Origin: Haloferula luteola
Lineage (GTDB): Bacteria; Verrucomicrobiota; Verrucomicrobiia; Verrucomicrobiales; Akkermansiaceae
DNA: 64,000 nucleotides
Reading direction: 5' to 3'
Assembly (NCBI RefSeq): GCF_014201715.1
Contig: NZ_JACHFD010000005.1
Span: 1 to 64,000 of the forward strand
The position numbers were made by a program, and so were the translations under genes. The notes under the pieces are model-generated. The model saw nothing but the letters and a program-made list of their open reading frames with translations. It did not search any database and was not told where the DNA came from. Position 1 is the first letter of the stretch; each line of letters opens with the position of its first letter. Shown here in pieces: positions 1-4,483 of this stretch.

Positions 1-912
1 GGAGGCGTGGGGGGCCTGTTGATGCAGCGGACGGTCTCGGACGGGAAGCTGAGACGCCCGGCATACGACGGAAACGGAAATATCACGGCCTGGGCTCTCA
101 AGGGTTCCGGAGGCACAGCAAATCCCAATATGGAGCAACTGCGGACGGAATACGATGCGTTTGGAAATATCGTGGTTTCAGAAGGGATCTTGAATTCGGA
201 GTTTGGGTTCTCCACCAAGATTCGCGATCCTTACACGGGACTCTCCTACTACGGATACAGGTATTATGATCCGGTGACGGGGCGGTGGCCGTCCAGGGAT
301 CCGATTGGGGAACGGGGCGGGGTGAACCTGTATGGGTTCGTTCAGAATGATGGCGTCAATTGGGCGGACTACTTAGGTCTGAAGATCAAACGTAAATGCG
401 ACTTCACAATTGCTGTGGGCCACGGCGCCGAACCTCCTGACGACGATGGTCCTGCAAATAACTACGTGGATAGCGTTTTGAGGGGCGCAGAGTGTGGCGA
501 TCGAGTGGGAGCTGTAAGCTGTTACAACGGACATATCAATGATGCCATTCCCGAAGACAAGAGGTTGCCGAATATCCCGGAGAGGAGAAAAGGGAAAGGC
601 GACCCTCATGACGGGATGTTCCGATTCTCTGACTTGATCGAAGCCGGGATAAAAGCGGTTGAAGCGGCGGAGAAACAGGCACCTGAGGACTGCAAAGATC
701 CTGAAACCTGCTGCTCGAAGATCGAAATCGACGTGAACTGCTTGCCGGGCGGCAGGGATGATGTGAACCGCTGGCTGACAGGCCAGCATGGGAACTTCGG
801 CGACGAATTGGTCAAGCGAGGAAAAGCTCTCTGCAATTACAGCAATACCTACAATTGCAAATCTGGGAAGTGGAGCGGCAAGCTAATCGGGGAGCAGTTG
901 AGCGGAAAATGA
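1..912 (+). CDS. RHS-repeat protein, C-terminal part with variable toxin-type domain (5' truncated by window)
   Basis: The reading frame is open at base 1, so this is the 3' end of a larger gene. Residue numbers below count the GTG at 7 as residue 1. Residues 1-70 carry degenerate YD/RHS repeats ('YDGNGNI', 'YDAFGNI'). Residues 73-124 are the RHS-associated core ('RYYDPVTGRW', 'SRDPIGE', 'NLYGFVQND'), the usual junction between the RHS cage and a polymorphic C-terminal domain. The roughly 175 residues after 'DYLGL' are not a family I recognise. They are Cys-rich and contain a hydrophobic strand ending in 'VGHG' (H139) and a second ending in 'AVSC' (C172), a pattern reminiscent of clan CD cysteine peptidases. 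RHS proteins deliver such domains in contact-dependent competition. A toxin role here is inference from architecture. The TGA overlaps the next gene's ATG. Confidence 0.85.
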   Translation, partial: GGVGGLLMQRTVSDGKLRRPAYDGNGNITAWALKGSGGTANPNMEQLRTEYDAFGNIVVSEGILNSEFGFSTKIRDPYTGLSYYGYRYYDPVTGRWPSRDPIGERGGVNLYGFVQNDGVNWADYLGLKIKRKCDFTIAVGHGAEPPDDDGPANNYVDSVLRGAECGDRVGAVSCYNGHINDAIPEDKRLPNIPERRKGKGDPHDGMFRFSDLIEAGIKAVEAAEKQAPEDCKDPETCCSKIEIDVNCLPGGRDDVNRWLTGQHGNFGDELVKRGKALCNYSNTYNCKSGKWSGKLIGEQLSGK

Positions 913-1397
913 AAGCCCTAGCGATGGTTTTCTGTTTGACGCTTTCGTCAGCCATAGCCGATGACCTGACGGCGACCCCCAGCATCGTTGCTGTAGATCA
1001 AGCCAGCGGCACATTGCGAAATGCTGTGACAATGAAAGGGGAGAAAGCTTCCGAGGTGTTTGTCACCATCTACCGAGAGCTTGATCAGTTTGAGATCAAA
1101 CCGGATCTTTTGAAGAGGTTATTGGCGCAAGTCCAAGGAGGATTTCACGAAGAGGATCCGTTGCCTCTGCGGCCGGACTTTGAATTTGTCATTCAAAAAG
1201 AAGGCAAGGGCGGACTTGGGGTTAGCGTTGAGAAAGACGGCAGAGTGTTCTATCGAGGCGTCCGAGAGTTCGCAAAGGGCCTGTTTGAAGATGACGACTC
1301 GGAGGTCATGCCTGGTTCGTTCTTCGATAAGGAATTAGCCGCGACGTTGATTCAGATTGACACGCGAGACCGGAGGATGCGGGAGAATGATCGTTAG
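909..1397 (+). CDS. small secreted protein coupled to the RHS gene; candidate immunity protein
   Basis: The 162-residue product starts at the ATG that overlaps the RHS stop (ATGA), which implies translational coupling. The open frame extends further upstream, but the Met at 909 begins a good signal peptide ('MKALAMVFCLTLSSAIA' then 'DD'), so that start is preferred. The mature part is acidic and Lys/Glu-rich, with no recognised domain, no membrane segment and no lipobox. A small gene immediately 3' of an RHS gene is the usual place for the cognate immunity protein. An export signal would mean the toxin acts in the periplasm or envelope. The immunity role is inference from position only. Confidence 0.7.
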   Translation: MKALAMVFCLTLSSAIADDLTATPSIVAVDQASGTLRNAVTMKGEKASEVFVTIYRELDQFEIKPDLLKRLLAQVQGGFHEEDPLPLRPDFEFVIQKEGKGGLGVSVEKDGRVFYRGVREFAKGLFEDDDSEVMPGSFFDKELAATLIQIDTRDRRMRENDR

Positions 1398-1775
1398 GTC
1401 ATCGGTAGTTGAGCAAATACGGTATTCGCAGTAGAAGCGAAGTCCCTCCGGGCCACCTCCCCGGAAACTCCTAGAGTCAAAGGAGTCAGTCCTCGCGCTT
1501 TAACACCCGTGTCAAAGGGGTCATTCATGAAAGGTAATGCTTTAAGTCATCGTCCGTTGATAATTAATGATGGAGGGCCGTCCGGATTTCGGTAGGCACC
1601 GTGTGAATATCCAAGCTCTTCTGAGCGGCTTCCAGGCGACCACATTTGCCACTTCAAAATACGTCCAGTAAGCGTAAGTGTCGTAAAATCGACCCCCTAT
1701 CGTGCGGCCGCTTGACCTGCCAACATTGCCGGGATGTGCAGATCCACCTGCCGCCCCGCGCGGCCACTGCCATGC
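1398..1775. other. non-coding stretch between RHS module and IS relic
   Basis: I see no credible gene here. It contains the short direct repeat listed separately and then grades into G+C-rich decayed IS66 sequence. No terminator with a T-run was found after the small secreted gene. Confidence 0.5.
1476..1523. repeat. short direct repeat GTCAAAGGRGTCA, two copies
   Basis: GTCAAAGGAGTCA at 1476-1488 is repeated as GTCAAAGGGGTCA at 1511-1523, one mismatch in 13, with a start-to-start spacing of 35 bases. It lies between the RHS module and the IS66 relic, so it could be an insertion footprint or a regulator site. Nothing in the sequence decides between them. Confidence 0.5.
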
Positions 1776-2262: not shown

Positions 2263-2587
2263 TCAACTCGGCCGTAACCGAGCCGAAAACACGACCAGCG
2301 GATGGGAATTCACACCAAGTCCAGAGGTTCCCCACGGCTGGCGTGGGCGTGAATGTGTGCTTCGAAAGTTGGTGGGTCTTTGGGGGCCTTGGTGAAAATG
2401 TCCATGATGAGGAATCGCAGAATTGGAGATTCGCCAAGGGATGACGGGGCCAGCTTCAAGGGGGTTGAGATGACGAAGATGGAGTGGAGTTTGTCTGCGT
2501 GCTGTGCCTATCGTTAAGGATTCAATGATGGACGATTTTGAAGTCGTTTTTCGGAAGATTATGGATCATGTTCTTTGTGGAAAGAAG
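2263..2587. other. stretch between IS66 relic and GH2 gene
   Basis: No convincing gene. The first part may still be decayed insertion-sequence DNA, because the frame continues without family resemblance. The last 80 bases are A/G-rich and precede the glycosidase. A purine-rich 'GGAAAGAAG' immediately before 2588 is a plausible ribosome-binding site for that gene. Confidence 0.45.
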
Positions 2588-4483
2588 ATGAAGATAGGAA
2601 TGATTGGATGGTGGGTATCGGCGTTAGGGGCGGTAGGTCTTGCTTTTGGAGGGACAGAGGAGGGGGCTCTGATGACGCGGTGGGGCAAGGAACTCACGGT
2701 TGAGGCTCCCGGATGGTCGTCTCATCCTCGGCCAGGGTTTCGGCGGGAGGATTGGGGAAGTCTCAATGGAGAGTGGGATTACTGTATTTCGAAAGAGGGA
2801 ATCGCTGTGCCGGAAGTTTGGAGCGGAAAGATCCGTGTTCCCTATGGCCCTGAGTCGGTCTTGTCGGGAGTGCACAGGGAGATCGAGCCTGGCGATTTTC
2901 TCTGGTACCGAAAGGAGTTTTCCATCGATAAGCACGAAGGAAAGAAGGTCGTGCTGCATTTCGATGCGGTCGACTACGAGACGAAGGTTTGGCTGAATGG
3001 GCAGGAGGTGGGTTCCCATGTTGGAGGGTTCACCCCGTTTGCGGTCGATTTATCCGAAGCCTTAACGGATGAAAGGAATGTCCTGTGGGTCAGGGTAACG
3101 GACGGGACGGGGGGATATCAACTCCGCGGGAAGCAAAGCTTGACGCCGAAGGGGATCACTTACTCGCGAGTTTCGGGAATTTGGCAGACAGTGTGGTGGG
3201 AGCAACTTCCTGAAACTTGTCTCGAAGGGATGGACTATTGGACGGAGCCGTGGGTCGGAGAAGTTGATGACGGAAAGGCACCTTCTGCGAAGTTGAGGAT
3301 TTCGCCGCAGATCATCGGATCGGCGGCGGGAGCAAGTGAAGTGCGGGTGAAGGTCCGACTGGAGGGAGAGGTGGTCGCTCAGGGAAACGGCACGGATGAG
3401 GTTTCGCTGAGGATCGAGGATGCAGAGTGGTGGTCGCCGGATCATCCGGTGCTCTATGACCTCCAGATCGAACTTCTGAATGCGAGGGGAGAAGTCGTGG
3501 ACGAAGTGGCGTCCTATGTGGGACTTCGAACGGTAGAGAAGCGGCTGAATGGTCAAGGGCGAGAGGCCATCTTCCTGAATGGGAAGGAAATCTTTTTGTA
3601 TGGACCCTTGGATCAAGGGTGGTGGCCGGAGAGCTTGCTGACACCTCCGTCTGAAGAGGCCATGGTGGCCGACCTCCAGTTCGTGAAGGACGCGGGCTTC
3701 AATTTCGTGCGCAAGCATGTGAAAGTGGAGCCGTCCTTGTACTATTGGCACTGCGATCGTTTGGGGATCGTGGTTTGGCAAGATCAGGTGAATGCAGGGA
3801 TGTGGTCGGGGAGTCCTCCTGAAGAGATCAGTCCTCCATGGACGCGATTGGATGATGACCCTGTCGACGGCAACTGGCCGGATGCCGCGCATGCCCAGTG
3901 GGTCACCGAGTATCAGGCGATGGTGGATCACTTGCGCGACCATCCTGCGATTTTCGTGTGGTGCCCGTTCAATGAATCGTGGGGGCAGCATCGAAGCATG
4001 GAAGTGGGAGCGATGGCCAAGGCCTATGATCCCAGCCGCCTGATTTGTTTGGCCTCGGGAGGAAATTTCTGGCCGGTGGGTGATATCGCTTCGGCTCACA
4101 ACTATCCGGTGCCACAGATGCCGGGGTTCTCGGAGAAGTTCGAAGGGATGATTCAGGTGGCGGGTGAGATGGGAGGAATGGGACTGGTCTTGCCTGGACA
4201 CCTTTGGACATCGGAGAAAGGGTTGCCGTGGTCCCATCAAAACTCGGAGTCGCTGGAAGATTGGAAGTCGCGATACCTTCAGATTGTCCGGAAGGTCGCA
4301 ACCTTGCGAAAAAGTTCTTTATCAGCAGCGGTTTACACCCAGCTCAGCGACGTGGAGCACGAAGTGAACGGGTTTCTGAGCTATGATCGAGTGCCGAAGG
4401 TGGATGCGGCTTGGTTGAGGAAAGTGCATCGCGAACTGCTGCCTGAGCTGGGGCGGGTGGAAAGGTCTGCCCAGTCGGAATAG
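2588..4483 (+). CDS. secreted glycoside hydrolase family 2 protein (beta-galactosidase/beta-glucuronidase type)
   Basis: The 631-residue product is a retaining exo-glycosidase of clan GH-A type; its substrate cannot be told from sequence. The Met at 2588 is chosen because it starts a signal peptide ('MKIGMIGWWVSALGAVGLAFG'). The N-terminal jelly-roll sugar-binding domain spans about residues 45-205 ('WYRKEF', 'VWLNGQEVGSHVGGFTPF'). An immunoglobulin-like domain follows to about 310, then a TIM barrel ('FNFVRKHVKVE', 'VVWQDQ'). The acid/base Glu is E463 in 'FNESWG'. E527 in 'AGEMGG' is the likely nucleophile, although its context departs from the classical GH2 signature. The gene is monocistronic, with no transport or regulator genes next to it. 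A periplasmic or extracellular polysaccharide-degrading role is inferred. Confidence 0.88.
   Translation: MKIGMIGWWVSALGAVGLAFGGTEEGALMTRWGKELTVEAPGWSSHPRPGFRREDWGSLNGEWDYCISKEGIAVPEVWSGKIRVPYGPESVLSGVHREIEPGDFLWYRKEFSIDKHEGKKVVLHFDAVDYETKVWLNGQEVGSHVGGFTPFAVDLSEALTDERNVLWVRVTDGTGGYQLRGKQSLTPKGITYSRVSGIWQTVWWEQLPETCLEGMDYWTEPWVGEVDDGKAPSAKLRISPQIIGSAAGASEVRVKVRLEGEVVAQGNGTDEVSLRIEDAEWWSPDHPVLYDLQIELLNARGEVVDEVASYVGLRTVEKRLNGQGREAIFLNGKEIFLYGPLDQGWWPESLLTPPSEEAMVADLQFVKDAGFNFVRKHVKVEPSLYYWHCDRLGIVVWQDQVNAGMWSGSPPEEISPPWTRLDDDPVDGNWPDAAHAQWVTEYQAMVDHLRDHPAIFVWCPFNESWGQHRSMEVGAMAKAYDPSRLICLASGGNFWPVGDIASAHNYPVPQMPGFSEKFEGMIQVAGEMGGMGLVLPGHLWTSEKGLPWSHQNSESLEDWKSRYLQIVRKVATLRKSSLSAAVYTQLSDVEHEVNGFLSYDRVPKVDAAWLRKVHRELLPELGRVERSAQSE

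Follow-up and report, generated by a model that had tools for sequence, protein, structure and literature searches.

A Cysteine-Rich C-Terminal Domain of RHS Proteins with a Conserved His-Cys Pair and a Candidate Exported Immunity Partner in Verrucomicrobiota

Introduction

The closest described systems to the locus reported here are the Sec-exported RHS polymorphic toxins, the T2SS/Sec class in the catalogue of Zhang et al. (2012; PMC3482391). To the extent that the available portions of that catalogue describe them, they share with our locus an RHS core ending of the TIGR03696 type, a variable C-terminal domain, and a small coupled gene, and the long RHS proteins of the genus in which we found the locus begin, as in that class, with N-terminal signal segments. 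The locus departs from the class in two respects: its toxin-like domain is in no family library that we searched, and its partner is, by prediction, exported. In the same portions of the catalogue immunity proteins are nearly all cytoplasmic and globular, with Imm65 as the sole lipoprotein (PMC3482391).

Three groups of toxins offer partial parallels. Tox-JAB-1 with Imm65, and Tox-LD-peptidase, resemble the present locus in that an RHS toxin is accompanied by a secreted, lipidated, or membrane immunity partner, but their motifs, as given in the part of the catalogue available (HxH for Tox-JAB-1; H, S, and C for Tox-LD-peptidase; PMC3482391), are different from those described below, and our domain has no Pfam match to either. 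Cpe1, according to the available part of its report (PMC12136450), is a papain-like cysteine protease toxin with a Cys-His-Asp/Asn triad that cleaves GyrB and ParE. It is like our domain, whose thiol activity is putative, in belonging to an interbacterial thiol hydrolase toxin family able to ride on Rhs carriers, and unlike it in that here the His comes before the Cys and the partner appears to be exported. Finally, Tox-Caspase domains and other members of clan CD (C14, C25, and CHAT) have in common with our domain a Gly-His followed by a Cys after two successive predicted strands and a C-terminal position in the toxin protein; our domain differs from them in that the His strand comes first, the HG is not kept in five members, and the domain is small, rich in cysteines, and without a significant profile or fold match to them.

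Here we describe a candidate cassette at the beginning of a 64,000-nucleotide stretch of DNA from Haloferula luteola (hereafter the window, meaning the whole stretch that was analyzed). Our leading reading, which is tentative and which we place just short of an even chance, is that we are dealing with an RHS toxin-partner cassette in which a disulfide-rich His-Cys thiol hydrolase toxin would act outside the cytoplasm and would be countered by an exported immunity protein. If true, this would add a new type of toxin to a familiar class of weapons used in competition between bacteria, and envelope toxins with exported antidotes would broaden the range of targets known for RHS proteins. The analysis also supplies a His-Cys pair that can be put to the test, together with a partner, for a toxin-like family absent from the libraries searched.

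Results and Discussion

An RHS Tip Coupled to a Candidate Partner Gene

Positions 1-912 of the window, including the stop codon, contain the last 303 codons of an ORF for the C-terminal end of an RHS protein (this and the other features of the cassette are on the plus strand). The first base of the window is also that of contig C5, and the frame runs open to this 5' edge; the RHS gene is therefore 5'-truncated and has no true start in the window. The end of the RHS core ("YYGYRYYDPVTGRWPSRDPIGERGGVNLYGF..DYLGL"; 1-375), which is cut by the contig edge, matches the RHS-associated core model TIGR03696 (E 8.4e-23; ORF residues 51-127), and the variable C-terminal domain lies directly 3' of it. 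An earlier note on this DNA had proposed an RHS toxin-like C-terminal domain at this place, and the position of the core bears that proposal out. The domain (376-912) consists of 178 codons (376-909) and the stop, and contains nine cysteines.

The stop codon of the RHS gene overlaps, as ATGA at 909-912, the start of a second ORF (909-1397) whose product of 162 amino acids begins with MKALAMVFCLTLSSAIA (909-959), which reads as a signal peptide with a predicted cut before DD and scores 2.57 under our hydrophobicity rule. The coupled next gene with a signal peptide is present as the earlier note had described it, and the partner, whose signal peptide is predicted from sequence, is a candidate immunity protein. 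The note had recognized neither domain from the known polymorphic-toxin catalogue, and searches of Pfam, NCBIfam, and PADLOC at E <= 10 likewise gave no match to the domain or to the partner.

A Family Thinly Spread in Verrucomicrobiota

When the sequence of the window domain alone was used as the query, the 260 sampled genomes of its taxonomic family yielded three weak relatives, which places the domain in four of the 260 at E <= 0.001. A profile built from these first weak relatives was then used for wider searches. It detected the domain in 6/260 genomes of the family and 7/386 genomes of the order at E <= 0.01, and in 2/384 genomes of the class and 4/288 of the phylum at E <= 0.001, with our own genome included in each count and with samples that overlap from one level to the next. 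The domain family is thinly spread among the sampled genomes. Single-sequence searches of genome contigs, plasmids, and phages and a profile search of viral contigs recovered no relative of the domain, and the best matches in a sequence search of solved structures had E values of 0.38 and 0.51.

Nine further members were kept, all from Verrucomicrobiota, all located behind RHS tips, and 19-37% identical to the window domain, so that the set comprises ten members with the window. They include members from metagenome-assembled genomes of Akkermansiaceae (L022), Verrucomicrobiaceae (L023, the same as L010), and Verrucomicrobiia (L024, on the same contig as the same-genus match in genome G090). 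One of the ten, L019, is truncated by the end of its contig and is absent from counts that concern the second half of the domain, for which n is therefore nine. Pfam returned two isolated weak matches (PF03708, E 0.017, and PF01523, E 0.092), each in a single member and unrelated to one another, which we set aside. The domain is best read as a new, cysteine-rich family of RHS toxin domains, known from sequence.

Two candidates are outside the set. L017 (E 0.009) was discarded as false; it has two internal stop codons and begins a frame that, as we read it, resembles phosphoenolpyruvate carboxykinase. L020 is a broken relative and was left out of the counts: at 1492-2230 inserted DNA parts the RHS tip from the toxin-like domain, and a fragment there resembles, again in our reading, a REP-type transposase. 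In L024 (4150-6210) and in L019 a tyrosine recombinase (PF00589) is located immediately 5' of an orphan RHS tip that carries this domain, and in L024 the recombinase and the tip form one continuous frame.

A His-Cys Pair among Conserved Cysteines

The ten-row alignment showed that Cys8 and Cys49 are present in all ten members and Gly15 and His16 in nine, and that Cys106, Cys112, Cys113, and Cys161 are present in 9/9 (L019 lacking the second half). Gly15, His16, and these six cysteines are the only positions within the domain, its RHS-derived start excluded, whose conservation reaches 90%; Ala98 comes next (8/9). His16 (H139 of the ORF; 421-423) and Cys49 (C172 of the ORF; 520-522) are the His of VGHG and the Cys of AVSC that the earlier note had singled out as a clan CD-like pair. 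Given that the one is kept in 9/10 members and the other in 10/10 at identities of only 19-37%, the pair belongs to the core of a real family and is beyond chance. The exception for the His is L016, an intact ORF that has Ala-Asp instead of Gly-His. The His and the Cys are 33 residues apart in the window, and the note had taken this short spacing to mean that the domain may be a compact variant or something else; the distance ranges from 22 to 49 across the ten members, however, so the spacing carries no weight.

Probably, the domain is a His-Cys thiol hydrolase, an assignment that we keep as putative. It is consistent with the number of cysteines, which is odd (seven, nine, or 11) in eight of the nine complete members, an excess with a binomial P of 0.02 for events that are not independent. 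An odd count fits one unpaired thiol; L009, with eight cysteines, does not fit. The remaining cysteines may be paired. In particular, Cys122 and Cys153 are each found in 7/9 members and are both missing from L010 and from L021, and such joint loss is as expected of a disulfide and makes these two the best-supported pair.

The same cysteines lend themselves to another explanation, in which Cys49 would be a structural disulfide cysteine and the protein an envelope toxin that makes no use of a thiol, being either a hydrolase in which His16 serves as base or metal ligand or a binder of membrane or wall that lacks enzymatic activity; the partner would still be an exported immunity protein. We consider this a serious alternative, if a doubtful one. 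Cys49 may indeed be structural, because Cys8, Cys106, Cys112, Cys113, and Cys161 are as well conserved as it is, and the even count in L009 and the persistence of the cysteines in L016 despite its missing His point the same way. What argues against a purely structural role is the odd count in the other eight complete members and the fact that Gly-His is the sole motif other than cysteines kept in 9/10. A metal site likewise finds no backing in the ten-row alignment, where none of the Asp, Glu, or further His residues is shared by seven or more members. Our leading reading, for its part, is weakened in that no third catalytic residue is conserved.

Predicted Fold and the Question of Clan CD

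An AlphaFold model of the window domain, built on a four-row alignment, had a mean pLDDT of 76 and a pTM of 0.79. It consists of a strand (5-15), a helix, a strand (43-48), a helix (84-107), a strand (113-122), two helices, and a final strand (156-160), with His16 directly behind the first strand and Cys49 directly behind the second. A model of L024, a member of the other subfamily, was of lower confidence (mean pLDDT 66.5, pTM 0.62; pLDDT below 50 for residues 37-51, around its Cys43) and has its elements in the same order, strand-helix-strand-helix-strand-helix-helix-strand, with the His ending strand 1; the two models are not independent, both having been built on the same four sequences. 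The prediction is thus of a Rossmann-like sheet with His16 and Cys49 at the carboxyl ends of its first two strands, and it is at such ends that the active sites of these sheets lie.

The earlier note had suggested Foldseek and profile searches of the domain; these were carried out, and searches of the PDB and of the viral folds in BFVD with the models gave no significant match and no Foldseek match at E <= 0.001. With VIA-align, the top row was malate dehydrogenase 4e0b_C for the window model (Z 5.0, rmsd 4.1, 99 residues) and ketoreductase 4j1q for the L024 model (Z 5.1, rmsd 3.5, 95 residues), values that are common by the tool's own remark. The secreted C11 protease iotapain appeared among the Foldseek rows with a probability of 0.02 and was set aside. 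None of the fold and profile searches of the domain gave a match that names an enzyme.

The earlier note had likened the His-Cys pair to that of clan CD, and on that view the domain would be a compact, N-terminally shortened peptidase of the clan, kin of the Tox-Caspase domains. Several features invite the comparison. One strand ends in the His and the next in the Cys; the window, L009, L019, and L021 have C-[YF]-x-G at the Cys; and caspase-like domains at the C terminus of toxins form a recognized category in the available part of the 2012 catalogue (PMC3482391). Profiles were compared by hhalign with those of C14 and C25 peptidases from related genomes (14 and 12 sequences, respectively). 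The best local match to C14 pairs the GHG motifs of both but covers only 10 columns, at a probability of 2.6%; the probability was 0.1% for C25 and 0.2% for the control comparison of C14 with C25, which thus also failed, so that the test lacks power and sequence speaks neither for nor against kinship. Among the Pfam matches of the ten members at E <= 1 there was no clan CD model. Moreover, among the nine members with the His only four have a Gly after it, the other five having HR, HT, HL, or HN, and L016 has Asp instead of the His.

The models give this assignment no significant support either. In the clan CD fold further strands precede the His strand, and since the His strand is already the first in the model of our domain, the assignment would require that the preceding strands have been lost. 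The CHAT protein of a SAVED-CHAT filament (8tl0_D), which we take to belong to clan CD, was found at rank 23 (Z 3.7, rmsd 4.3, 93 residues), level with unrelated folds; a literature search on SAVED-CHAT gave no relevant result. Hence the clan CD identity is unsupported by any significant profile or fold match, and we judge it improbable.

Exported Partners

We return to the reading of the domain as a His-Cys thiol toxin and to the gene that follows it. A hydrophobicity rule applied with starts chosen by hand classed the next gene as exported or membrane-like in all nine complete members with a readable neighbor, and the neighbor of the broken relative L020 is exported-like as well. Two of the nine partners (those of L021 and L026) are polytopic membrane proteins, which would suit a membrane-acting toxin and to that extent favors a structural role for Cys49. 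The partners of different members show no clear kinship; the best pair not in tandem, L010-L018, had an E value of 0.03. In 254 genomes of the family, relatives of the window partner were limited to weak matches in two other genomes (E 0.002-0.004), and no RHS tip was found beside either in the frames read. L016 (537-1480, minus strand), where the His is missing, has two exported-like partners; they stand in tandem and are related to each other (29% identity, E 7e-15), and one contains a faint SLBB-like stretch (E 0.18, below the cut-off).

As a control, we examined the other RHS cassettes of the genus (loci among L027-L064, L106, L108, and L126-L150). A recount by position read 66 of 74 places, those lacking including two with little DNA past the stop and one running off the DNA; leaving out the present toxin-like family (two places) and two tips of fewer than 60 residues gave 62, of which 59 had a next ORF. 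This ORF was signal-peptide-like or TM-like in 37/59, the call being a hydrophobicity threshold, not SignalP, that misses some signal peptides. By the same next-ORF rule 5/38 next genes in the window were exported-like (Fisher P 1e-6 against 37/59), and by first Met 11 of 45 greedy ORFs in the window were, the partner among them. An earlier, smaller set based on a text pattern had given 32/40, a value that is biased and too high, as the pattern missed many RHS tips, and is superseded by 37/59. The nine of nine in the toxin-like family compares with 37/59 at a two-sided P of 0.026, with the starts hand-picked for the nine, and with 32/40 at a P of 0.32. The family may thus lie somewhat above the genus in exported partners.

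Thus, the exported partner that the earlier note had emphasized is present, but it is not peculiar to this toxin; we have dropped it as a special mark, and it is largely a habit of the lineage, because 37/59 other cassettes of the genus have one too. Set against the mostly cytoplasmic immunity proteins in the available part of the 2012 catalogue (PMC3482391), the frequency of exported partners in the lineage is noteworthy in its own right, and the 37/59 cassettes, as compared with 5/38 next genes in the window, suggest a lineage in which many RHS weapons may target the envelope. A literature search that covered titles and the opening lines of abstracts, with thin coverage of subscription journals, found no report of RHS toxins of Verrucomicrobiota with exported immunity.

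Signals on the RHS proteins themselves are in keeping with export by Sec. In the genus a start was read for six long RHS ORFs (L109 included), and each of them opens with a signal or anchor segment; the full-length RHS protein of member L026 does so too. Within the family, only in L026 and L021 does the toxin protein show an export signal of its own, the start being cut or missing in the window and in most other members. L021 (1282-1941), the only one of the short RHS-tip ORFs inspected that begins with a signal peptide, is a putative stand-alone mini toxin in which the signal peptide is fused directly to the end of the RHS core and this domain, and a multi-TM protein follows it.

A Possible Mechanism

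If our leading reading is correct, Sec would export the RHS protein, and the RHS shell would carry the C-terminal domain. Release of the domain would occur behind the conserved "..DYLGL" with which the core ends, and the domain, once freed, would act in an oxidizing compartment, the periplasm or cell envelope of a neighbor. Disulfides, of which Cys122-Cys153 is the best-supported, would hold the domain together, and His16 and Cys49 would form a thiol dyad that hydrolyzes an envelope substrate, most simply at a peptide or amide bond. Meanwhile, the 162-residue partner would bind the toxin in the periplasm and so shield the producer and its kin. A broader proposal is that the domain represents a new class of disulfide-braced His-Cys thiol toxin of the envelope and exemplifies a wider rule, namely that Sec-exported RHS proteins of this group within Verrucomicrobiota carry mostly envelope-directed tips with exported antidotes, unlike the cytoplasm-directed tips implied by the available part of the 2012 catalogue (PMC3482391); taken as a whole, we hold this proposal to be rather unlikely.

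Genomic Setting

The cassette lies among repeats. A repeat 3' of it (1476-1666, plus strand) is 84% identical to positions 1595-1792 of contig C50 of the same genome, and within it 1555-1666 is 82% identical to C50 3717-3835. Two more RHS tips on C50 are 96% (window 1-341) and 90% (window 1-384) identical to the window tip, with core ends that are alike and C-terminal ends that are unlike. With repeats thus on either flank, the cassette has the setting that exchangeable RHS modules would be expected to have. Contig C50 (locus L111) is 4.4 kb in length and contains these two RHS tips and the repeats; it and the edge of the window are possibly parts of one broken RHS array.

Such surroundings, which resemble those of orphan modules, raise the question of whether the domain is a non-toxin or a silenced orphan remnant. 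The gene behind it would then encode a co-factor, a substrate, or an exported protein with no tie to the domain, rather than an immunity protein. That the partners of the relatives are mostly unalike, that L020 is clearly broken, and that toxin activity is putative would all be in accord with this. The frame is intact and joined to its neighbor by ATGA, however, the cysteines and Gly-His have been kept at 19-37% identity, and an exported or membrane-like neighbor is present in nine of nine members; we therefore regard a remnant as very improbable and retain the toxin-partner cassette as our reading of the locus.

Finally, we note that an IS66 Orf2-like (TnpB) frame is located behind the cassette (1946-2395; PF05717, E 2e-24), with another on the contig of L020, and that positions 2504-4483 of the window encode a glycoside hydrolase family 2 protein (PF02837, PF00703, and PF02836).
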